DNA from: Sideroxyarcus sp.
Lineage (GTDB): Bacteria > Pseudomonadota > Gammaproteobacteria > Burkholderiales > Gallionellaceae
Assembly (NCBI GenBank): GCA_030652215.1
Contig: JAUSBC010000119.1
Coordinates: forward strand, 1-64,000
Length of the DNA stretch: 64,000 bases
Direction: 5' to 3'
Shown: positions 30,809-63,572 of the stretch, one piece after another
Numbering within the stretch: the first letter of the stretch is position 1
How the letters are laid out: each line of letters opens with the position of its first letter
Notes under the pieces: generated by a model
What the model was told of the DNA's origin: nothing
Seen by the model: the letters and a program-made list of their open reading frames with translations, nothing else
Database searches by the model: none
Translations under genes and position numbers: made by a program

Positions 30809-32002
30809 ATGTGGAACGTAAAGTCATTGTTCAAAATTAACGAATTTTCCATCTTCGCCATCAGTGTCGCCCTGCTACTAGTTGCCTGTGGCGGCGGCGG
30901 CACGACGAGTTCTGCCATTCCCGGCACCCTGTTTTTCGCGGCACAGAGCGACACGACCGTAGGCTTCCAACTATGGAAAACCGATGGCACAGTCAGCGGT
31001 ACGGTGGCGGTAAAAACGCTCAACCCTGCGGGAGGTTCTTATCCCATGCATTTTGCCGCACTCAACGGCGTAACTTACTTCAACGCATTTGATAACAACA
31101 CCAGCACTCCCCAACTGTGGAGGACTGACGGCACGGCGGACGGCACATTCGCGCTGACCGCCGGCAGCGGTGTAAACCCTTCCGGTCTGACCGCGCTCAA
31201 CGGGACGCTGTACTTCGTCGGCGAAGATGGCAGCGGCAAACGATTATGGAAAAGCGACGGCACGGCTTCGGGCACGGTGGCGGTAACGAGTGCTCCCGGC
31301 CCGAACAGCGTTGAGAACCTGATTGCATGCAATGGCGCGCTGTACTTCAGGGGTTTCGACGGCAGCCGCTATCAATTGTGGAGAAGCGACGGCACCGCGT
31401 CCGGCACGGCCGCAGTGACGAGCGTCACATGGGATCTGGATCCGATCAACTTGACCGCATTCAACGGCGCAGTCTATTTCAACGGAAACGATGGCAGCAG
31501 CTATCAGTTGTGGAAGAGCGACGGCACCGCGTCCGGTACGGCGGCAGTCACGAGTATTGCCGGAACCTTCGATCCGGCGCTCATCACCGCCATCAACGGC
31601 GCACTGTACTTCGGCGCGGGCGGCGCCGGAAACTGGCAGTTGTGGAAGAGCGACGGCACCGCGTCCGGCACAGTGGCCCTGACGAACGTTGCGGGCGGCG
31701 TTGCCCCTGAGTTCATGATCGCCTTCAACGGCGCGCTTTATTTCAGCGGGCATGATGGCAGCGGCTATCAGCTCTGGAAAAGCGACGGCACCGCATCCGG
31801 CACGGCGGCAGTCACGAGTATTGCCGGCGGGCTCATGGTGAACTCGCCAAGAGTACTCAACGGCGCGCTGTACTTCTCAGCTGCCGATGCCCTTCACGGC
31901 AGGGAAATGTGGAAGAGCGACGGCACGGCAGCCAACACGCGGATGCTGGTGGATATTTGCAGCGGCACCTGCAATGGCATGCTACTGCTCGGCCCCTTAT
32001 GA
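30809..32002 (+). CDS. Lipoprotein with ELWxxDGT propeller repeats
   Basis: The product has 397 residues. AAGGAGA precedes the ATG; the signal ends in a lipobox (LLLVAC, then five glycines). About eight repeats of 45-52 residues follow, each with QLWKSDGTASGTAAVTS or a close variant and NGALYFSG. These are ELWxTDGT-type blades that close into a beta-propeller. At the DNA level the repeats GAGCGACGGCACC recur many times and could recombine. It is likely surface or periplasmic; ligand unknown. Confidence 0.8.
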   Translation: MWNVKSLFKINEFSIFAISVALLLVACGGGGTTSSAIPGTLFFAAQSDTTVGFQLWKTDGTVSGTVAVKTLNPAGGSYPMHFAALNGVTYFNAFDNNTSTPQLWRTDGTADGTFALTAGSGVNPSGLTALNGTLYFVGEDGSGKRLWKSDGTASGTVAVTSAPGPNSVENLIACNGALYFRGFDGSRYQLWRSDGTASGTAAVTSVTWDLDPINLTAFNGAVYFNGNDGSSYQLWKSDGTASGTAAVTSIAGTFDPALITAINGALYFGAGGAGNWQLWKSDGTASGTVALTNVAGGVAPEFMIAFNGALYFSGHDGSGYQLWKSDGTASGTAAVTSIAGGLMVNSPRVLNGALYFSAADALHGREMWKSDGTAANTRMLVDICSGTCNGMLLLGPL

Positions 32003-49344: not shown

Positions 49345-49509
49345 CCCGTCATTCCGGCGCAGGCCGGAATCCAGTTGGTAAAACATTCCCCGCGAAAGCG
49401 GGCCAACACTGCTGCAATGTCCGCTGCGCGGAGTATTTGTTCTTGCTGGATTCCGGCCTGACCGCAGGTCAGCTTGTCCAGAGCTTGACGAAGGGCCGGA
49501 ATGACGGGC
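49345..49509. repeat. Composite inverted repeat
   Basis: CCCGTCATTCCGGCGCAGG plus CCGGAATCCAG at the left is mirrored by CTGGATTCCGGCCT and GGCCGGAATGACGGG at the right. Inside is another inserted segment with CGCGAAAGCGGGCC. Related fragments lie at 63325-63410 and 63535-63566. Confidence 0.6.
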
Positions 49510-54259: not shown

Positions 54260-54584
54260 CCGTCGGGGGTAGCCCGACAGCTAGTCACTTTCTTTTGTCT
54301 CGCCAAAAGAAAGTAACCCAAGAAAAGGCGACCCCAGCGCGCCGCCCCTGCGGGGTTCCCTGCGTTGCTCAACTGGTCAGGCGGCTGCGGAACTCGCGCT
54401 ACGCGCTCAGACATAACCAGCGACTTAGCTGGCGTTCTTTGCCAGCTTAGTCAAATGGCTAGTTGTTTCATCAGTCCTCGCCGACTACCCCTGACCAGCC
54501 TCCGCTACTCGGCGGCGCACAGGGGAAAGAAAGTCAAAACCGAAAACCACTGCGTGTGCACTTCGTGCCCACGCAGCTTTGGCA
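54260..54584 (+). repeat. Long direct repeat, left copy
   Basis: It begins CCGTCGGGGGTAGCCCGACAG and ends TGCCCACGCAGCTTTGG. It is a near copy of 56582-56844 once the 60-bp insert at 54413-54472 is removed (265 versus 263 bases). Together with the right copy it flanks the propeller gene at 54629-56458. Translated pieces (KESNPRKATP-type peptides) resemble common junk ORFs and are not real genes. Confidence 0.7.
54413..54472 (+). repeat. 60-bp structured insert, copy 1
   Basis: It starts ATAACCAGCGAC and ends GTTTCATC. Within it GACTTAGCTGGC and GCCAGCTTAGTC (54422-54452) form a 12-bp stem with one T-T mismatch and a 7-base loop. The flanks join exactly (GCTCAGAC/AGTCCTCG) as in the right repeat copy, so it is an insertion. 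The second copy is at 63335-63394. Confidence 0.65.
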
Positions 54585-54628
54585 GGACGCAATGCCCGTT
54601 TCGATTCTTTGATTGCGAGGAGGACGCC

Positions 54629-56458
54629 ATGAAACGATCTCGCTTCGCTTCACGCCTGCATCTCATGGCGAATTTGCTGTTCCTCATCGCGGCCTCTCTG
54701 GCCGCGATCCCGGCCGACGCGGACGCAGACCGGGAACGCATCATCTATACCGCATTGCGCCCGGCAAACATGGACATCTATCTCTTCGACGCCCCGGGCA
54801 AGGCGCCGCGCCGGCTCACGGAGCACCCCGCGCTGGATTACAACGCGGTCTTCTCGCCTGACGGCAGATGGGTCGTGTTCTGCTCGGAGCGCAGGGGCAA
54901 TCCGGACCTCTATGCCCTGGACCTTAGTAACCCGGGACCGGCCCGGCTGCTGACGAACAGCGATGCCATGGAAGATGCTCCGGCCCTTTCGCCTGACGGC
55001 AAAAAGCTCGCCTTTGTCAGCGACCGCGACGGCAATGCCGACATCTTCGTGATGCCTTTTCAACCCGAAGGTCCGGATGTTTCCTCGCTGGCGGTAAACC
55101 TGTCCCGCCACCCGGCCGGGGATTTCAACCCTGCCTTCTCGCCCGACGGAAAGAGGTTGGCCTTTTCCAGCGACCGGGACATTTACCGCGAGAGCGAAAT
55201 CTACGTTATGCAGACGGACGGATCAAAGGTGCGAAGACTGACCCGCGCTCCGGGCTGGGATGGTTCTCCGGCATGGTCAGGGGACGGAAAAGAGATCTAT
55301 TTCTATTCCCGGCATTCTCGGCGGAACGACGCTGCTCCCGGCATCTACCGCATGCAGGCGGATGGTTCCGGAAAGACGCGGATCGTTGCCGGTCCCGCGC
55401 TCTCGCCCGCGGCTGCGCCGGACGGCCGCATTGCCTATGCCGCACAGCAGAATGGACGGTGGATCATCCTTTCTTCGTCGGAGAACGGCAAGGACATACG
55501 GTATGAAAGCGATTCGCAGCATGAGTGCTGGGCGCCGGCCATCGATCCCGGGACAGGCCGCATGATCTGCCACGGCTCCGGAGGGACTGCGCAGGCGCCG
55601 GCGATCGAATCCCCCGTTCCCGGCCCCTTCTTGGTGGACAACCAGGCGCGTGTCGAGCTCCCCGACCGCACACTCGAACTCTGGGCCGTACGCGGCACGT
55701 TTCCGACTGTCGATCCCACGCTGACGAAACTGGCGACCGCCGAGCACTTCCAGCGGGTCATGATATCGGAGCTCGACGGAAGCGGGCGACGCGCGGTCTT
55801 CGAACCTGTCCGGGATCGTGTCTGGAGGCCATATTGGTCAAAGGACGGTGAGTGGATAGTCTGCGCCGTCGGGGCGACCTTCGGAAAACCCGCCGACCGC
55901 GTGGACATATGGAAGCTCCGGCCTGACGGCAGCGGCGTGACCAACCTGACCGGCGGCAACGCGGGCAATAACGGTTTCCCCTATTTTTCTCCCGACGCAC
56001 AACAGATCGTCTTCCGGAGCGGACGGGACGGCAACCACGAGATATATCTGATGGACGCCGACGGTTCAAACGTGAGGCGCCTGACCGCCAATGAAGCCAC
56101 CGACACCATGCCTTCATTCTCGCCCGACGGGAAGCAGATCTCCTTCGTTTCCGCGCGCGAGGGTGACCATGAGATTTACACCCTCGACCTCGGCCCCGGC
56201 GGAAAACCCGAAAAACTCCGCCGCATCACCCATAGCCCCGGATTCGACACCCACCCGGTCTATTCACCTGACGGGAAATGGCTGGTGTTTTCGTCCCAGC
56301 GCGGCGGCCTGAACGATGAGGAGCCGCTCATACCGGTCTTCAATCCCCAGCCCTATGGAGAGCTTTACGCCCTGCGCCTGGAGGACGGACTGGTCGTCCG
56401 TCTGACCCACAACAAATGGGAGGACGGGACTCCGACGTGGGACGAGCTTCCGCGTTAG
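54629..56458 (+). CDS. TolB-like beta-propeller exported protein
   Basis: The product has 609 residues. The ATG at 54629 follows GAGGAGG. The signal peptide covers about 1-32. Many PD40/TolB-type blades follow: YNAVFSPDGRWVVFCSERRGNPDLYALDL, PALSPDGKKLAFVSDRDGNADIFVM, PSFSPDGKQISFVSAREGDHEIYTL. This is longer than TolB (about 430 residues), suggesting two propellers or extra blades. It is a periplasmic or secreted scaffold, perhaps polysaccharide-related. It sits exactly between two direct repeats. Confidence 0.8.
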   Translation: MKRSRFASRLHLMANLLFLIAASLAAIPADADADRERIIYTALRPANMDIYLFDAPGKAPRRLTEHPALDYNAVFSPDGRWVVFCSERRGNPDLYALDLSNPGPARLLTNSDAMEDAPALSPDGKKLAFVSDRDGNADIFVMPFQPEGPDVSSLAVNLSRHPAGDFNPAFSPDGKRLAFSSDRDIYRESEIYVMQTDGSKVRRLTRAPGWDGSPAWSGDGKEIYFYSRHSRRNDAAPGIYRMQADGSGKTRIVAGPALSPAAAPDGRIAYAAQQNGRWIILSSSENGKDIRYESDSQHECWAPAIDPGTGRMICHGSGGTAQAPAIESPVPGPFLVDNQARVELPDRTLELWAVRGTFPTVDPTLTKLATAEHFQRVMISELDGSGRRAVFEPVRDRVWRPYWSKDGEWIVCAVGATFGKPADRVDIWKLRPDGSGVTNLTGGNAGNNGFPYFSPDAQQIVFRSGRDGNHEIYLMDADGSNVRRLTANEATDTMPSFSPDGKQISFVSAREGDHEIYTLDLGPGGKPEKLRRITHSPGFDTHPVYSPDGKWLVFSSQRGGLNDEEPLIPVFNPQPYGELYALRLEDGLVVRLTHNKWEDGTPTWDELPR

Positions 56459-56536
56459 GCGCTTCGTGATGCCAGGCGTCAAAGATGCAAAGGGATGTTC
56501 AGCATCGCAATAATTTCAGCGAGGGAGCGGAAGTAT

Positions 56537-56571
56537 GTAGGTTGGGTTGAGCGTAGCGATACCCAACAATC
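56537..56571 (+). repeat. Half GTAGGTTGGG palindrome
   Basis: GTAGGTTGGGTTGAGCGTAG then CGATACCCAACAATC is one arm of the family seen at 24721-24799. The other arm is missing. Confidence 0.5.
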
Positions 56572-56581
56572 AAGCCCAACA

Positions 56582-56844
56582 CCGTCGGGGGTTGCCCGAC
56601 AGCAAGTTACTTCTTCTTGCTTCGCCAAGAAGAAGTAACCAAGAAGAAGGCGACCCCAGCACGCCGCCCCTTCGGGGTTCCCTGCGTTGCTCGACTGGTC
56701 AGGCGGCTGCGGAACTCGCGCTACGCGCTCAGACAGTCCTCGCCGACTACCCCTGACCAGCCTCCGCTACTCGGCGGCGCACAGGGGAAAGAAAGTCAAA
56801 ACCGAAAACCACTGCGTGTGCACTTCGTGCCCACGCAGCTTTGG
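56582..56844 (+). repeat. Long direct repeat, right copy
   Basis: It is near-identical to 54260-54584 but without the 60-bp insert. It starts CCGTCGGGGGTTGCCCGACAG and ends TGCCCACGCAGCTTTGG. Confidence 0.7.
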
Positions 56845-56928
56845 TAGGGTGCAATAAGCGTAGCGCATTGCGCCAGATTTTCAGATGTCGCACATACGGC
56901 GCAATGCCCATTGGTTATTGCGCCCTAC
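56844..56928. repeat. Palindromic GTAGGGTGCAATAA element
   Basis: Ends GTAGGGTGCAATAAGCGTAG and GGTTATTGCGCCCTAC are inverted copies. It overlaps the last codons of the PIN-domain gene, whose stop codon (56915-56917) lies inside the right arm. Confidence 0.7.
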
Positions 56929-58417
56929 GCGGGCTGCCGCTAATCAATTGATTTAGCCCACAACGCCTACGCGCCTCGTCCATAGAATTTTCTTCAACGT
57001 AGGAAATTTTTAGCGGAACTTTAATTGATTCCGGATGTGCCAGATTTTTTGCCCTAACTGTAAGTGCCAAAACGCCCCTACTTGGTCGTTTTCCCAAATC
57101 CACCAACAAAGTAAAGTAAAACTCCTCTGGTACATCCTTGTGAACAAACTCCTCACACTCAAATTCCCATTGAGATTGGGGCATCCTTGGTCTGTTAGGT
57201 TTCCAATAGAATCCATTCCTATCCCTATTTCTAGGTAGGCCGAGTGGACTTAAACCTGTCTCTAAATTATGTAATGCTGAACCATGCAGCATATTGCCTA
57301 ACTTAAATGCATCAAGTCCGAGAAATGTATTTACGCTTGTATATTCCCCTCGTGGTGGGCTAGGTGGTTTATTGAACTCCCAATCTTGAATAGCCTCACC
57401 CTCATCAATTGGCGGAGCGATTAGTATTGCGCTAGGCACCTCTATTTTGAAGATGGCATGTTCTGCTGGCATGTTTCCAATATTGGATAATGCCAGCGAA
57501 ATTCCAATTTTGTTATTTTGCTCTGACAGGAAGTCAGGCAATCCAGCCAGTTTTCTTTCTACTTCTCTTAGCCACCCCGGATAATCTTCATTTTTATATT
57601 TTTCGATCTCCTCAAATGAGGGGGGCTTGTACTTTCCCCGCATGAACTGCGCGGCAGTCAATGAAATCGCTGGTGCAGCAAAAGCATTACTTTTACTCAC
57701 TGTCTCTTCCGTAAAGTGTTCTGCCATTGGATATGCAGCTTCGATTTCTTGAATCAAGAGTTCGACTTCACTCTGCGCCAACGGTGGATAGACAACAATT
57801 TCGGCATTGATCTTGTCCGGAACAGCAGCTCCTTCCTCACCAAAAGTGAACTCAAATTTTGGTTGAGAACTTTCAATTTCACTTATACGAGTTTTTAGAA
57901 TTCGAATTTCCTTTTCCCGCTCATCAGGCTCAGGGGTCAACAACCATTCATCAGGAATAACCTGATATGGGATTTTTAATCTTTTTGCAGTCAATAATGG
58001 ATTTGTATCGTGCGTTAGTAGCGCAACATCTTGCTCTGGATTGAGCGCGCGATATGAAATCAACTCAAGCAAAATTGAGTCATCAGGCCTGTTGCTATCC
58101 AGCGCCACCTCTGCAACATCGGAAGGCGAGGCGGCAACATGCGATGAGAAAGTTAATGCCACATCCACCCCCGAATTGCCTCTCACCTGGAATTGTTCGT
58201 CATCACTTAAAATGATTTGTCTAAAATATGAATTAGTACTTCTCGCCCGTTTTGCCCGGCGACTATTTCCATCCGCCTTTAATTTGTCGATTTCATGCTG
58301 CACTGCGCGCGGGATAATTAGCTGCACTGGCTTTCTATCCGAAATATCACCCCAAGGCAGGTCGATTACATCTCGACACTGAAGGAATAAATTTGTATCT
58401 ACGAAGAAACACTTCAT
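56915..58417 (-). CDS. PIN-domain protein, large
   Basis: The product has 500 residues. The N-terminal PIN domain has FFVDTNLFLQ (Asp7), HEIDKL (Glu/Asp), SNRPDDSIL and LLTHDTNPLL, the usual acidic quartet of a metal-dependent ribonuclease. After an E-rich linker comes a large C-terminal domain (about 185-500) without a recognised family, including a helical stretch and Ig-like strands. The gene is AT-richer than its neighbours, which suggests transfer. Its last residues (SPRRAQ) come from the repeat element, so the true end may have been altered. Confidence 0.75.
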   Translation of the reverse strand: MKCFFVDTNLFLQCRDVIDLPWGDISDRKPVQLIIPRAVQHEIDKLKADGNSRRAKRARSTNSYFRQIILSDDEQFQVRGNSGVDVALTFSSHVAASPSDVAEVALDSNRPDDSILLELISYRALNPEQDVALLTHDTNPLLTAKRLKIPYQVIPDEWLLTPEPDEREKEIRILKTRISEIESSQPKFEFTFGEEGAAVPDKINAEIVVYPPLAQSEVELLIQEIEAAYPMAEHFTEETVSKSNAFAAPAISLTAAQFMRGKYKPPSFEEIEKYKNEDYPGWLREVERKLAGLPDFLSEQNNKIGISLALSNIGNMPAEHAIFKIEVPSAILIAPPIDEGEAIQDWEFNKPPSPPRGEYTSVNTFLGLDAFKLGNMLHGSALHNLETGLSPLGLPRNRDRNGFYWKPNRPRMPQSQWEFECEEFVHKDVPEEFYFTLLVDLGKRPSRGVLALTVRAKNLAHPESIKVPLKISYVEENSMDEARRRCGLNQLISGSPRRAQ

Positions 58418-58428
58418 TTGCGATTCTC

Positions 58429-61218
58429 CTAATGCGCCTCATCCCAATTGCCGCCCTCACCCAACCCCACCTCCAGCGGCACCTTCAACTCCGCCACATT
58501 ACACATCAACTCCCGCACCTTCTCTTTCACGCGTAAAAGTTCAGCATCAGGCACTTCCAGCACCAGTTCGTCGTGCACCTGCATGATGAGCTTGGTTTGC
58601 AACTTCTCTTTTTCCAGCCAATCCTGCACCGCAATCATCGCCAGCTTGATCAAGTCGGCGGCGGTGCCCTGCATCGGCGCATTGATCGCTGCACGTTCTG
58701 CGGCCTGTCTGCGCATGCCATTGGCGCCATTGATCTCCGGCAACCACAGCCTGCGCCCGAACCAGGTCTCGACGAAGCCCTGCGCCTTGGCCTGCTCACG
58801 CGTGCTGTCCATGTAGCGCTTCACGCCGGGGTAGCGCGCGAAGTAGAGGTCGATGTATTGCTTGGCGGCGCTGTTTTCGATGTTGAGTTGGCTGGCCAGG
58901 CCATAGGCCGACATGCCGTAGATGAGGCCGAAGTTGATGACTTTGGCGTAGCGGCGCTGTTCGCTGCTCACTGCATCGAGTGCGACGCTGAACACTTCGG
59001 CGGCGGTGGCGCGGTGGATGTCTTCGCCGTTGGCGAACGCTTTCAATAGACCTTCGTCGCCGGACAGGTGGGCCATGATTCGCAGTTCGATCTGCGAATA
59101 GTCGGCGGAGACGATGCGGCTGCCTTGCGGTGCGATGAAGGCTTCGCGGATGCGGCGGCCTTCGGGGGTGCGGATGGGGATGTTCTGCAGGTTGGGATCG
59201 CTGGAGGCGAGACGCCCGGTAACGGCCACCGCTTGTGAGTAGCTGGTGTGCACACGCCCGGTTTTTTGATTCACCATCTGCGGCAGTTTGTCGGTGTAGG
59301 TGGATTTGAGCTTGGACATGCCGCGATGCTCGAGCAGGATCTTGGGCAGCGGATAGTCGAGCGCAAGTTCCTGCAGCACTTCTTCGTCGGTGGAGCGCGA
59401 GCCGGTTGCAGTTTTCTTCTTGGACGGAATGCCGAGTTTATCGAACAGGATTTCCTGCAACTGTTTGGGCGAGGCCAGGTTGAACGGTTGCCCGGCCAGT
59501 TCATAAGCCTGCTTTTCGATGGCCATGATCTTTTCGCCGAGCTCGTGACTTTGTCTCGATAGTTTTGCACCATCGATCAGCACGCCGTTGCGTTCCATCT
59601 TGAACAGCACTTCGCGCACGGGTAGTTCGATGTCGCGGTATACCTCGGCCAAGCGGCCCTGCAACTGGGGCGACAAAGTCTGGTGCAGTTGCAGTGTGAT
59701 GTCGGCATCTTCGGCCGCGTAACGGGTAGCTGTTTGCAGATCGACCTGGTCGAATCCTATCTGCTTGGCGCCTTTGCCCACCACGTCGGTGTAGCTGACC
59801 GTCGACAGACCCAGGTGTCGCAAGGCGAGGTTGCCCATCTCGTGCGGCTTGTGCGATTCCAGCACATAGGATTGCAGCAATGTGTCTTCGGCGATGCCGG
59901 CGAAGGCGATGCCGTGATTGGCGAAGATATGCTGGTCGTATTTGAGGTTCTGGCCGAGCTTTTTGTGCGCCGGGCTTTCCAGCCAGTGCTTGATTTTTTT
60001 CAGTGCGTGGTCGCGGCCAAGCTGATCCGGTGCGCCGGGATAGTGGTGCGCCAGCGGCAGATAGGCGGCCTGATGCACTTCGATGCTGATCGTGATGCCG
60101 ACCAGTTGTGCGGTCATTTCGTCGAGGCCGGTGGTTTCGGTGTCTATGCTCACCAGAGGGGCGGCCATCAGTTTTTCTATCCACGCATCAAGCTGGGCTT
60201 CGGTGAGGATGGATTCGTAGTTGGAGGTATCGTTGACGGTGGAGGGGAGCGGAGCTTGCTCGAACTGGCGCGGGTCGTGGCCCTTCAGTCCCTCACCCCC
60301 GGCCCCGTGAAGCCCCCCTCTCCCCCCGGGAGAGGGCATGGGGTGAGGGGCGGGCGAGGGGAGTGAAGCATCGGGCGATGAAACTTCTCGCAGCCACGAC
60401 TTAAAGCCGAAGCGCTCGAACAGTTCCTTCATCTTTTCGTTATCGGCGGCGGGCGCAGCCAGTTCGTCGAACCTTTTGTCCAGCGCCACATCGCATTTCA
60501 CCGTGACCAGCCTACGGCCTTGCGGTAGCCAGTCGCGCGCGGCGCGCAGGTTTTCGCCGACCACGCCGCCGACCTTGTCCGCATTGGCAATCAGGTTATC
60601 CAGCGTGCCGTATTCGGTGAGCCACTTCACTGCGGTCTTGGGCCCGCACTTGGCCACGCCGGGTACGTTATCCACTGTATCGCCAACCAGCGACAGGTAA
60701 TCCACAATCCGCTCGGGCGGTACGCCAAACTTGGCCAGCACACCGGCTTCATCCAGCAGTTCGTTGCTCATGGTGTTGACCAGCGTGACATGCGGATTAA
60801 CCAGTTGCGTGAGGTCTTTGTCGCCGGTGGAGACGATGCAGCGCGCGCCCTGTTGCGATGCCTGCTGCGTGAGGGTGCCGATAACGTCGTCGGCTTCCAC
60901 ACCGTCGACCATCAGGATGTTCCAGCCGGCCGCGGCCACCACCTCGTGCAACGGCTCGATCTGCAGGCGCAGATCGTCCGGCATGGGCGGACGATTCGCC
61001 TTGTACTCGGGATACCAGTCGTCGCGGAATGTTTTGCCCTTCGCATCGAACACGCAGGCGCTATAATCTGCCGGGAAATCGGCACGAAGTTTGCGCAGCA
61101 TGTTGAGCACGCCATAAATCGCGCCGGTCGGTTCGCCCTTCGGGCTGCGCAGGTCCGGCATGGCATGGAATGCGCGATACAGATAGGACGAGCCGTCCAC
61201 CAACAACAATGTCTTCAT
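58429..61218 (-). CDS. polA: DNA polymerase I
   Basis: The product has 929 residues from 61218. The 5'-3' exonuclease covers 1-275 (DGSSYLYRAFHA, TGDKDLTQL). The proofreading domain has active-site DTETTGLD (Asp359, Glu361), NLKYDQ and YAAEDADI, so 3'-5' exonuclease activity is likely kept. The polymerase has SADYSQIELR, RRYAKVINFGLIYG and QVHDEL. The linker at about 285-313 is Pro/Gly-rich (SPAPHPMPSPGGRGG) and encoded by a repeat-like segment, see findings. The start is only 16 bp from the divergent LOG gene. Confidence 0.95.
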   Translation of the reverse strand: MKTLLLVDGSSYLYRAFHAMPDLRSPKGEPTGAIYGVLNMLRKLRADFPADYSACVFDAKGKTFRDDWYPEYKANRPPMPDDLRLQIEPLHEVVAAAGWNILMVDGVEADDVIGTLTQQASQQGARCIVSTGDKDLTQLVNPHVTLVNTMSNELLDEAGVLAKFGVPPERIVDYLSLVGDTVDNVPGVAKCGPKTAVKWLTEYGTLDNLIANADKVGGVVGENLRAARDWLPQGRRLVTVKCDVALDKRFDELAAPAADNEKMKELFERFGFKSWLREVSSPDASLPSPAPHPMPSPGGRGGLHGAGGEGLKGHDPRQFEQAPLPSTVNDTSNYESILTEAQLDAWIEKLMAAPLVSIDTETTGLDEMTAQLVGITISIEVHQAAYLPLAHHYPGAPDQLGRDHALKKIKHWLESPAHKKLGQNLKYDQHIFANHGIAFAGIAEDTLLQSYVLESHKPHEMGNLALRHLGLSTVSYTDVVGKGAKQIGFDQVDLQTATRYAAEDADITLQLHQTLSPQLQGRLAEVYRDIELPVREVLFKMERNGVLIDGAKLSRQSHELGEKIMAIEKQAYELAGQPFNLASPKQLQEILFDKLGIPSKKKTATGSRSTDEEVLQELALDYPLPKILLEHRGMSKLKSTYTDKLPQMVNQKTGRVHTSYSQAVAVTGRLASSDPNLQNIPIRTPEGRRIREAFIAPQGSRIVSADYSQIELRIMAHLSGDEGLLKAFANGEDIHRATAAEVFSVALDAVSSEQRRYAKVINFGLIYGMSAYGLASQLNIENSAAKQYIDLYFARYPGVKRYMDSTREQAKAQGFVETWFGRRLWLPEINGANGMRRQAAERAAINAPMQGTAADLIKLAMIAVQDWLEKEKLQTKLIMQVHDELVLEVPDAELLRVKEKVRELMCNVAELKVPLEVGLGEGGNWDEAH
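60289..60362. repeat. GC-rich repeat-like segment inside polA
   Basis: Plus-strand words CCCTCACCCCCGGCCCC, CCCCTCTCCCCCCGGGAGAG and GGGCATGGGGTGAGGGG form inverted segments as in intergenic GC-rich repeats. It is in frame in polA and adds about 25 Pro/Gly-rich residues. Confidence 0.55.
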
Positions 61219-61234
61219 TTTTTTGAGGCCCGAG

Positions 61235-61951
61235 ATGAACAACGATCTAAAACTTCCGCCCATGCAATCGCCCGAGTTGATGCAGTCGAAGGAGTCCTGG
61301 CGGGTGTTCGGCATTATGTCAGAATTCGTGTCGGCGACCGAACGCCTGCGCGACATCCATCCGGCGGTCAGCATCTTCGGCAGCGCGCGCACCCCGCACG
61401 ACCACCCTTATTACAAGCTCACGGAAGAGATTGCGCGTCTGCTGTCGGATGCCGGCTTCGCGGTCATCTCCGGCGGCGGTCCGGGTGTGATGGAAGCGGC
61501 CAACAAGGGCGCGTTCTACGGCAAGTCGGCCAGCGTGGGCCTGAATATCCAGTTGCCGCACGAGCAGCACAACAACCCGTACCAGAACATCAGTCAGACC
61601 TTCCATCACTTCTTCACGCGCAAGGTGATGTTCGTGAAATTCGCCAGCGCCTATGTGGTGATGCCCGGCGGCTTCGGCACCATGGACGAGTTGATGGAAG
61701 CGCTGACGCTGGTGCAGACCGGCAAGACTCGTCGCATGCCGGTGATTTTGGTCGGCAGCAAGTTCTGGGGCGGTTTGCTGGAGTGGTTCAAGTCCAGCCT
61801 GCTCGAAGAGGACATGATCTCCGCCACCGATCTGGATCTGATCAAGATCATTGACGAGCCGGAGCAGGTGGTCGCCGCCATATTCAAGCATTACGAAACT
61901 CGCGGCTTCGAGCCTTCAGTGGCCGAACTCGAGATGCAGCTTAATCTTTGA
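61235..61951 (+). CDS. LOG-family (TIGR00730) protein
   Basis: The product has 238 residues from the ATG at 61235 (GAGG just upstream; a TTG at 61223 overlaps that site). The family motif PGGFGTMDE and GGGPGVMEAANKGAF are present. LOG proteins hydrolyse cytokinin riboside monophosphates and related nucleotide-like substrates (5'-phosphoribohydrolase); in bacteria the true substrate is uncertain. Divergent from polA with overlapping control regions. Confidence 0.9.
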   Translation: MNNDLKLPPMQSPELMQSKESWRVFGIMSEFVSATERLRDIHPAVSIFGSARTPHDHPYYKLTEEIARLLSDAGFAVISGGGPGVMEAANKGAFYGKSASVGLNIQLPHEQHNNPYQNISQTFHHFFTRKVMFVKFASAYVVMPGGFGTMDELMEALTLVQTGKTRRMPVILVGSKFWGGLLEWFKSSLLEEDMISATDLDLIKIIDEPEQVVAAIFKHYETRGFEPSVAELEMQLNL

Positions 61952-61999
61952 TGCGTATCGGATAGAATCCACCCGTACTCATTCCAAACGGAACAAATC

Positions 62000-62329
62000 A
62001 TGCGCCCCTTATATTTTGCTGCCCTCGCCTGCCTGAGCTTAAGCGTCTATGCCGCCGAGCCCGGAAAACCCGCCAAGGCCGATGTACCGCCACCGCCCCC
62101 GATGGCGACGGACGACGCGCTCGACGAGCCGCAGGTGACCATCATCAAGCAGACAGAGCAGACCATCGAGGAATTCCGTGCCAACGGAAAACTCTACATG
62201 ATCAAGATCACGCCCAAGCATGGCGTGCCTTACTACCTGGTGGACGACCGTGGCGACGGCATGTTTGCACGTCGGGATCATCTGGACACCGGCCTGCGCG
62301 TACCCCGCTGGATCATAAAAACCTTTTAA
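62000..62329 (+). CDS. DUF2782 exported protein
   Basis: The product has 109 residues with a signal peptide (cleavage near YAAEP). A proline-rich linker precedes the DUF2782 core (VTIIKQTEQTIEEFRANGKLYMIKI, then GVPYYLVDDRGDG). It is found between polA-region genes and thrB in many betaproteobacteria. The 11-bp gap to thrB suggests co-transcription. Function unknown. Confidence 0.85.
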   Translation: MRPLYFAALACLSLSVYAAEPGKPAKADVPPPPPMATDDALDEPQVTIIKQTEQTIEEFRANGKLYMIKITPKHGVPYYLVDDRGDGMFARRDHLDTGLRVPRWIIKTF

Positions 62330-62340
62330 TTCTCCCCCGC

Positions 62341-63282
62341 ATGGCTGTATTTACGACCGTTACCGAGCCGGACATTTCCGTCTGGCTCGCCAATTATTCG
62401 CTGGGCATCCTGCTCGAACTTGAGGGCATCCCCGAAGGCATCGAGAACACCAACTACTTCGTCACTACCGGCAACGGCCGTTTCGTGCTGACGCTGTTCG
62501 AAAAACTCACCGCGAAAGAACTGCCGTTCTTCCTCAACCTGATGGCGCACCTGTCGCGGCACGGCATTCCCTGCCCGGCTCCCGTGGCGAATCTGCAGAA
62601 TCGTTTTCTTGGCGAGTTGAACGGCAAGCCCGCCTGCATTGTCAGCCGCCTTTCCGGCAAATCGGTGACGCAACCGACGGCGGCGCAATGCGCGGCCATG
62701 GGGGCGATGCTGGGTCGGATGCATGTCGCAGGACAAAGCTTCGAAGAACAAATGCTCAACCCGCGCGGCGCGGCCTGGCGTTTCGAGGCATCGGAAGCGG
62801 TGAAGCAATTTTTATCGCCGCAGGACGCGGCCCTGCTCGACAGCGAAGTCGAGCTCCACGCCAAGCATGCGCTGGTCGACATTCCGCGCGGCGTGATACA
62901 CGCCGATCTGTTCCGCGACAATGTGCTGATGGAAGGAGACCGCGTCGGCGGTTTGGTTGATTTCTATTTCGCCTGCACCGGCAACTTGCTGTACGACGTC
63001 GCCATCACCGTGAACGACTGGTGCCTGGGAGCCGACTCAAAGTTGGATGCGGTACGCACGCGTGCCATGCTGAGCGCCTACCATGCGGCGCGCCCCTTTA
63101 CGGGTCGGGAAGCCGAAGTCTGGCCGCAGACATTGCGCCTGGCGGCTTTGCGTTTCTGGATATCGCGTTTGTACGACCTGCATCTGCCGCGCGAAGGGGA
63201 ACTGGTTGTTCCGCGCAATCCCGAGCCGTTCAGGCGCATTTTGCAGAATCACATTGAGACGACACAGCCTGTCTGGCTGTGA
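62341..63282 (+). CDS. thrB: Homoserine kinase, type II
   Basis: The product has 313 residues of the aminoglycoside-phosphotransferase-like ThrB (not the GHMP type): GIPEGIENTNYFV near the ATP site, IHADLFRDNVLMEGD (catalytic Asp and metal-binding Asn) and GLVDFYFACTGNLLYDVA (metal Asp). It phosphorylates homoserine in threonine synthesis. ThrH at the right edge can also act on homoserine, so threonine and serine genes are close together here. Confidence 0.9.
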   Translation: MAVFTTVTEPDISVWLANYSLGILLELEGIPEGIENTNYFVTTGNGRFVLTLFEKLTAKELPFFLNLMAHLSRHGIPCPAPVANLQNRFLGELNGKPACIVSRLSGKSVTQPTAAQCAAMGAMLGRMHVAGQSFEEQMLNPRGAAWRFEASEAVKQFLSPQDAALLDSEVELHAKHALVDIPRGVIHADLFRDNVLMEGDRVGGLVDFYFACTGNLLYDVAITVNDWCLGADSKLDAVRTRAMLSAYHAARPFTGREAEVWPQTLRLAALRFWISRLYDLHLPREGELVVPRNPEPFRRILQNHIETTQPVWL

Positions 63283-63334
63283 GGTGGAAAATTCAATTCA
63301 GCCCGGATAGTTTATCAAGCCGTCATACCGGCGA

Positions 63335-63394
63335 ATAACCAGCGACTTGGCTGGTGTTGTTTGCCAGCTTAGTCGAATGGCTAGCAGTTCCATC
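63335..63394 (+). repeat. 60-bp structured insert, copy 2
   Basis: ATAACCAGCGACTTGGCTGG to CAGTTCCATC, 53 of 60 bases identical to 54413-54472. It interrupts a CCGGCG-CAGGCCGG repeat of the kind seen at 49345. Two of the differences are in the stem and change G-C/A-T pairs to G-T pairs only, so the fold is kept. Confidence 0.65.
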
Positions 63395-63572
63395 AGGCCG
63401 GTATCCAGCAATGAAAAATATGCCGCGAAGCGGACAAAACAACGATGTTTGTCCCACTTACACCCGCAAGGGGTACGCCGTGGTTGTACGGGGCTAAAGC
63501 CCCAACAACACACGCAGCGTGGGAAGTATTTGTTCATCTGGATTCCGGCCTTCGCCGGAATGACTAGGTATT

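Follow-up and report, generated by a model that had tools for sequence, protein, structure and literature searches.

In the first 64,000 nt of contig JAUSBC010000119.1 of Sideroxyarcus sp. (assembly GCA_030652215.1), the stretch analysed here and hereafter called the window, two different repeats are each interrupted by a gene-less insert of 60 bp that can fold into a hairpin. We are inclined to assign both inserts to a single non-autonomous hairpin transposon about 60 nt long, similar in kind to repetitive extragenic palindromic (REP) sequences and moved in trans by an enzyme of the HUH type. Past mobility of the element is nearly certain and its movement as single-stranded DNA is likely, while the odds that the enzyme belongs to the HUH class are about even. 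Iron-oxidising bacteria and some of their relatives carry this element, which seems to have inserted itself repeatedly into other short repeats and also, in frame, into essential genes.

Two inserts and their host repeats

An earlier note on this DNA, made from the sequence alone, had reported two 60-bp stretches at 54413-54472 and 63335-63394, and these are indeed identical at 53 of 60 positions. Each breaks a different repeat, and uninterrupted versions of both host repeats are present in the window. The 38-base pattern shared by both copies matches twice in the window against 0.00 matches expected from 100 shuffles, and the pair of inserts is therefore not due to chance. The 12-bp stem with one T.T mismatch, the 7-base loop and the two differences that preserve wobble pairs were all found as described. 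The exact position of the edges had to be corrected: the boundaries lie one base rightward, at 54414-54473 and 63336-63395, as deduced from three loci treated below (L104, L021 and L044; loci are numbered with L and genomes with G).

The empty versions of the copy 2 host (63527-63564, 49346-49374 and 49418-49459) are partial and 83-90% identical. The host repeat of copy 1 is about 230 bp long (54301-54600, 56623-56855; L002, L003). Three of its copies in the source genome hold the element at an identical position, and two loci of other genomes (L099, L138) show the same arrangement. Rfam searches around copy 1 gave a single match at E<=1, with 11.5 bits against a gathering score of 70, on the opposite strand and touching only the end of the insert; no Rfam match was obtained around copy 2.

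Ends, lengths and target sites

A fuzzy pattern applied to loci L001-L192 yielded 176 distinct copies; very divergent copies escape this pattern and a few lengths depend on the edits made to it. The length is 60 bp in 111 copies, 54 bp in 38 and between 52 and 62 bp in 26 others, with one match of 82 bp. The copies are thus not all of 60 bp, and it is mostly the stem length that varies. The ends are fixed in the copies examined, and copies of variable length without fixed ends, named in the earlier note as an observation that would refute its reading, were thus not encountered. Flanks shared by all copies, the other such observation, were not found either: most copies have unshared flanks, with the exception in the source genome of the three copies in the copy 1 host repeat.

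In the 176 copies the two bases after the copy are AG in 149, AA in 21 and others in 6, and the 5′ flank is variable. If the copies are read in the frame ATAACC...CATC, they begin with A in 161 cases, with G in 13 and with C in 2, and CATC is followed by A in 171. This frame and the frame TAACC...CATCA are indistinguishable where the target has an A. They can be told apart in L104, L021 and L044, where the copies start with G in the ATAACC-type frame: here the joined flanks CCTTGCGG^GAGAGGG, CCCCCTTGCAGG^GGGAGGG and CCCCCATGCAGG^GGGAGGG, respectively (^ marks a boundary), form a perfect palindrome like their relatives only under the TAACC...CATCA frame. The unit is therefore TAACC...CATCA, inserted at R^G or A^A with the target not duplicated, and the junction reads A^TAACC...CATCA^G. 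The empty site of copy 1 likewise has no target duplication.

Insertion favours foldable sites, which are mostly other palindromic repeats, the element itself and also genes, in frame. A rough classification of 170 sites assigned 57 to a CCCTC/GAGGG palindrome, 34 to REPs with a CGTC tag (CGTC-REPs), 18 to a CACAGAG type, 13 to TTCGAC/GTCGAA, 3 to the element itself and 45 to none of these; the expression for the CCCTC/GAGGG class also catches copies of the copy 1 host repeat, and some of the remaining sites are variants of the named classes. The 45 sites outside the classes show A at position -1 in a fraction of 0.87, G at +1 in 0.84 and a weak GGC before. Calculated with RNA energy parameters, the mean folding energy of the empty sites is -15.0 kcal/mol against -12.1 kcal/mol for G+C-matched windows of the same loci, the empty site being lower in 111 of 167 comparisons (Wilcoxon p=5e-9).

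At least four copies lie inside other copies, precisely at GGCTA^GT (L024, L166, L176, L277). The comparison of empty sites in related strains, proposed in the earlier note, was possible for copy 2: the neighbouring gene is present in 31 of the 34 genus genomes, and none of the 19 relatives whose surroundings were compared carries the element beside it. In L282, L283, L286, L287 and L291 both genes neighbouring copy 2 are present with neither the element nor the CGTC-REP between them. Fixed ends, many unrelated sites, self-insertion and absence from the orthologous place in the relatives examined bear out the proposal of a tiny non-autonomous mobile unit.

In L033, L043, L101 and L277 the left and right flanks appear, by eye, to come from different repeats, pointing either to recombination of copies with one another or to cuts at two sites. 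Furthermore, element copies in L024 and L026 are themselves split at TA by another repeat (TTGATTCGGCC...GGCCGGATCAA), which resembles a miniature inverted-repeat transposable element (MITE) of the IS630 type.

Table 1. Coordinates in the window of the two element copies, their host repeats and uninterrupted host versions.
Feature	Position	Strand	Basis or remark
Copy 1, 48-nt hairpin part, whose stem starts at the element's 5′ end	54414..54461	+	
Copy 1, 3′ tail GTTGTTTCATCA (consensus GTAGTTNCATCA)	54462..54473	+	
Copy 1 host repeat, about 230 bp minus the insert, broken at CAGACA^GTCCTCG	54301..54600	+	uninterrupted copy 56623-56855
Empty-site copy of the copy 1 host repeat	56623..56855	+	95% over 234 columns of joined flanks
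Copy 2, hairpin part, 48 nt	63336..63383	+	
Copy 2, 3′ tail GCAGTTCCATCA	63384..63395	+	
Left arm of the CGTC-tagged REP hosting copy 2 (CGTCATACCGGCGAA)	63321..63335	+	CGTC-REP family as in the excerpt of PMC3733652
Right arm of the CGTC-tagged REP hosting copy 2 (GGCCGGTATCCAG)	63396..63408	+	
Uninterrupted CGTC-REP, empty version of the copy 2 host	63527..63564	-	
Uninterrupted CGTC-REP	49346..49374	+	

Structure of the hairpin and the folded strand

The element consists of a hairpin flush with its 5′ end and a nearly fixed 12-nt tail, GTAGTTNCATCA, which is nearly invariant across genera. The stem reaches beyond the 12 bp noted before, to the first base of the element, with examples from different genera such as TAACCA/TGGCTA (with an A.C mismatch), CAAGCA/TGCTTG, CAGCCA/TGGCTG and TAAGC/GCTTA. 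In an alignment of 60 diverse copies, in which the 54-bp copies are partly out of register, 90.3% of the pair cells are standard and 9 of 15 pairs have changed on both sides; the covariation of 0.308 compares with 0.139 after shuffling, and 0 of 500 shuffles reached a value as high. Among 17 cross-genus sequences 14 of 18 pairs have changed on both sides, and 91.5% of the cells are paired against 30% and 46% when the arms are slid by one column.

The T.T mismatch is retained in 96 of 102 distinct 60-mers. The same 60-mers contain 70 G.T/T.G cells against 12 A.C/C.A cells; 34 of the 70 fall at a single pair, and 36 against 10 are left when that pair is omitted. Due to this excess of G.T over A.C on one strand, the strand read from TAACC to CATCA is the folded one, either as DNA or as RNA.

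Besides this main class, a second, rarer class has the same hairpin and the tail TGCAAAGC. The tail TGCAAAGC or a close variant of it was seen in L137, L159, L176, L188, L253, L257, L274 and the G225 loci L269-L271; copies of this class stand in tandem in L159, L253 and G225 and in the loops of REPs with a GTAG tag (GTAG-REPs) in G094.

Family size and distribution

The genome search for the 60-mer recommended in the earlier note revealed a dispersed family at many unrelated sites. In the source genome (3.64 Mb, 128 contigs) a 76-base query gave 27 matches at E<=1, the last few of them partial, and a covariance model gave at least 42 hits at E<=1e-4, a minimum, as scoring covered 150 of the 968 first-look candidates. 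Covariance-model hits were obtained in all 34 genus genomes, with 1 to 49 per genome. In an order-wide sample, for which stricter filters were used, 20 of 250 genomes (4 of the 20 in the source genus) and 13 of 120 genera had hits. An exact 19-base pattern occurs in at least 116 stretches of named GTDB genomes; the matches listed are mostly from Gallionella, Sideroxydans, Ferrigenium and other Gallionellaceae or Nitrosomonadales, together with some from Thiobacillus, Sulfuricella, Hydrogenophilus and broadly named records. No match was found in the viral contigs of mobile-element collections with one exact 19-mer as query, nor in plasmids, phages and E. coli genomes with one 86-base query.

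Copies within genes

A crude longest-first caller of open reading frames (ORFs) placed 61 of 187 copies inside long frames, 30 of which were chosen by length and position and scanned against Pfam. A Pfam family was assigned to 27 of the 30 (10 of 10 at E<=1e-3 and 17 of 20 at E<=1e-5); the frames of L028, L040 and L117 had none at E<=1e-5. By coordinates, about 15 frames have domain sequence on both sides of the insert, the second domain stretch of an ABC-F-like protein and of one MFS protein being deduced from the stretch count, and in the others the insert lies near an end. The proteins with flanked inserts include IleRS, CzcA, Mfd, RecG, M3 peptidase, NuoG, the ABC-F-like ATPase, HsdR and GHMP kinase, as well as CysRS, where this was seen in two loci at the same position. 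In comparison with solved structures, an extra segment is located at the insert in RecG (403-462 against 416-420), Mfd (331-393 against 339-357) and oligopeptidase A (201-246 against 199-204); these segments exceed the length of the element because the host repeat is also there. The length of 155 of the 176 copies is divisible by three.

In the CzcA of L143 (3402-6758) the element stands within the frame of another repeat (SVRPEL^...^VEG). The peptides SVRPEL/VEG and PHPNPLPEGEG of this protein look repeat-encoded, one of them holding the element.

Search for a mobilising enzyme

Y1 transposase genes (PF01797) were found in 17 of the 27 genus genomes searched, and 8 of 9 further genomes gave a match. 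The covariance model of the element was run on 30 Y1 loci, on 25 loci (20 of them new, 2 of those repeating the 30) and on 24 loci plus L274, in all 72 distinct Y1 loci with a flank of roughly 0.7-1.5 kb on each side in most. The 30 loci around genus Y1 genes contained no element copy, and the linked Y1-type transposase gene that the earlier note had envisaged did not emerge, as none of the 72 distinct loci is directly flanked by a main-class copy. The clear main-class copy nearest to a REP-associated tyrosine transposase (RAYT) gene is about 1.4 kb away (L233). Other distances to Y1 genes are about 4 kb in L234 and L237, about 1.1 kb for a second-tail copy in L317 and about 0.7 kb for a weak 17-bit match in L303.

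An insertion sequence with matching ends, likewise suggested before, did not emerge either: when left and right arms outside full copies were sought in 192 loci, 28 orphan arms and no larger autonomous version were found. Left-then-right pairs of arms on one strand occur only in L026, 195 bp apart, and in L137, 356 bp apart, distances that leave no room for a transposase gene. When 3833 ORF stretches from 116 loci were clustered, no recurrent neighbour gene emerged, the top clusters reading as generic families and the largest, from 14 loci, as ABC transporter-like; the search for reverse transcriptases extended no further than this clustering.

A RAYT query gave hits in 12 of the 34 genus genomes at E<=1e-12, several of the hit-free genomes being incomplete. 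The 23 RAYT loci inspected (3 of subgroup A and 20 of subgroup B) have, as judged by eye, their own, different GTAG-REPs. The letters of the GTAG tag stand on either side of the gene in 23 of 23, which taken alone is a weak test. In L062, L075 and L076 the RAYT gene is flanked by REPs of the GTAGGTCGGGTTAGCG type, and in L062 and L075 it adjoins a gene that we read as thiolase-like. Six genomes have a full-length hit to a RAYT of this type, with 88-100% identity to the query, and in a seventh the gene is split.

Proposed movement and alternative explanations

In the reading favoured here, an enzyme would recognise the folded top strand and release the unit as single-stranded DNA by cutting behind an A at either end (A^TAACC and ATCA^G). 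The released unit would then be joined into single-stranded DNA, frequently within or next to the hairpin of a different repeat. This enzyme would act in trans and most probably be of the HUH (Y1-like) type, and copies inside REPs or larger repeats could also spread as passengers of their hosts. Taken together, the lack of a duplicated target, the folding of one strand, the retention of the T.T mismatch, the ends compatible with cuts after A and the foldable targets are best matched by a single-strand HUH process. The single-stranded hairpin movement that the earlier note had put forward is accordingly plausible to likely in view of the strand-specific tolerance of G.T, the absence of target duplication and the foldable targets, without being proven. 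As far as can be read from the boundaries, which are CA^ on the right and mostly GA^ or CA^ on the left, these may be compared with the RAYT protein TnpAREP, which according to the excerpt of PMC8266576 cuts single strands at CT or CA beside a folded REP and in one system requires a bulge.

Several observations weigh against this reading. No enzyme was linked to the element in the loci examined. No RAYT hit at E<=1e-12 was obtained in 22 of the 34 genus genomes, which nevertheless have 1 to 26 copies; they include the complete single-contig genomes G043 (24 copies) and G003 (11 copies), and the PF01797 search found no Y1 hit at all in G003. When a one-gene tree of 20 genomes is taken into account, the association of RAYTs with copy density loses significance for the RAYTs as a whole (p=0.21) and is marginal in subgroup A (p=0.034). 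For the insertion bias towards the lagging-strand template that is expected of IS200/IS605 derivatives, the orientation of copies relative to replication was compared; it is 9:3 in G003 and 21:20 in G023, together 30 against 23 in these two single-contig genomes, which is no significant bias (binomial p=0.41). Moreover, the GTAG stands 3′ of the hairpin, unlike in REPs, and there is a single hairpin, against one at each end in IS200/IS605.

We regard it as unlikely that the element is now immobile and that the present copies spread mainly through copying of host REPs and larger repeats and through recombination. The three source-genome copies that share the flanks of the copy 1 host repeat, together with L099 and L138, agree with such a spread, as do several copies with common flanks in G160 and the flanks from two repeats seen by eye in L033, L043, L101 and L277, which fit recombination between copies. 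Three second-tail copies in G094 have one GTAG-REP as their host, and a RAYT gene is flanked by empty copies of this REP, an arrangement that shows how inserts can ride on their hosts. However, the precise insertion into unrelated palindromes, other sequence, the element itself and genes needs a past cutting and joining activity, and three identical 62-bp copies in differing host REPs of the source genome suggest that this activity was fairly recent.

Movement of the element as an unusual REP by the cognate RAYT (TnpAREP) of these bacteria is improbable. RAYT-positive genomes do have more copies (median 8.5 against 2.4 per Mb, p=3.6e-4, n=34, without tree control), the tail starts with GTAG, and TnpAREP cuts at CT or CA (excerpt of PMC8266576). 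Against this, RAYT-negative genomes carry up to 26 copies, no RAYT gene in the loci inspected is directly flanked by the element, and the tree control removes most of the correlation, which would also be expected if more REPs simply meant more targets. The RAYT as cognate enzyme is disfavoured because the RAYTs inspected, of both subgroups, have their own different GTAG-REPs.

Slightly more improbable still is a route through RNA, in which a reverse transcriptase supplied in trans would copy a folded RNA of 60 nt with a CA(T/C)CA-3′ tail and the product would be inserted at a nick. The G.T asymmetry fits RNA as well as DNA, the 3′ end is precise, and the last bases of the tail, CATCA or CACCA, are, in our own comparison, faintly like the end of a tRNA. 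However, the 5′ ends are also precise, and precise 5′ ends are unusual for target-primed reverse transcription. In addition, the folded strand is antisense to both tandem neighbours in 42 cases and sense in 20 (binomial p=0.007; of little weight, as the ORF calls are crude) and is therefore not mostly a transcribed strand.

Small size, repetition and folding would suit an ordinary MITE derived from a DDE insertion sequence or an integron cassette without a gene, but either is highly improbable in view of the single hairpin, the missing terminal inverted repeat and target duplication, boundaries other than G^TT and ends without RYYYAAC/GTTRRRY, the motif of integron attC sites (RYYYAAC...GTTRRRY), in which the crossover is at G^TT. 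An integron attC, a core duplication of the IS110 type and a DDE MITE were each rejected on the boundaries.

Comparison with known systems

The element was filed as a small palindromic repeat resembling REPs and Rickettsia palindromic elements (RPEs) and is not a member of any family tested. IS200/IS605 elements do not duplicate their target, and in this respect the element is like them. A further likeness is a hairpin in which a base close to the cleavage site is unpaired or mismatched (excerpt of PMC8266576), but the element has one hairpin only, in place of one at each end, and a weak 5′ target preference, and no tnpA relative with the same ends was found. Terminal inverted repeats and a target duplication, which characterise MITEs of DDE elements, are both lacking.

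With the REP/RAYT systems (REPtrons, REPINs), as described in excerpts of PMC8266576, PMC3733652 and PMC3116915, the element shares a short, high-copy imperfect palindrome with a tag, a stem irregularity that is conserved in one system, and intragenic copies. In contrast, its GTAG is not directly 5′ of the hairpin but 3′ of it, in the 12-nt tail, and the hairpin begins at the first base; the element inserts into other REPs, and no adjacent RAYT was found, no main-class copy directly flanking any of the 72 Y1 loci and other REPs flanking the 23 RAYTs inspected. REPs inside other palindromes have been noted (excerpt of PMC3733652). For the CGTC-REPs (dRS3, RPE-4/RPE-6) the same excerpt knows of no dedicated transposase and records in-frame intragenic copies, both points of likeness to the element; however, CGTC-REPs are hosts here, and the element has a different stem and no CGTC tag, a tag found at the palindrome end in the copy 2 host. 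Like Rickettsia palindromic elements, which are palindromic repeats in frame in conserved genes (excerpt of PMC2229807), the element is inserted in frame into conserved genes, but RPEs are 105-146 bp long and belong to Rickettsia, whereas the element is mostly 54-60 bp, often nested in other palindromes and found in Gallionellaceae and relatives.

Among the open-licence papers that the literature searches brought up, none was recognised as a description of this element. As far as these searches show, the family as such and the way it is built are new, as are its insertion within itself and within several kinds of palindrome and the lack of a cognate gene in the loci examined. Cyanobacterial small dispersed repeats are also very small and inserted into other repeats, and are set apart by their description, being shorter and from other bacteria. 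They are mentioned in the excerpt of PMC3116915.

It is conceivable, though held here with some doubt, that the element represents a separate class of hairpin transposon, in which the 48-nt 5′-flush hairpin and the fixed 12-nt tail are the whole unit. Such a class would parasitise other transposable palindromes at their hairpins. Its mobilising enzyme, acting in trans, would be one that has so far not been connected with repeats of this kind, either a divergent HUH nuclease or, with a 60-nt RNA as its substrate, a reverse transcriptase. If the reading as a hairpin transposon is true, few mobile DNA units whose ends, target and structure are well defined would be smaller than this element. That it nests in several unrelated REP families points to extruded or single-stranded hairpins as landing sites, and RecG, Mfd, IleRS, CysRS and similar enzymes gain in-frame protein segments from it. 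With regard to REPs for which no dedicated transposase is given, such as the CGTC-REPs in the excerpt of PMC3733652, a short and precise element with many natural variants would be a testable substrate in the search for the enzyme.

Apart from the inserts and their hosts, the window contains a tandem array at 31357-31827 with a period of 132 bp, 3.6 copies and 71% matches.

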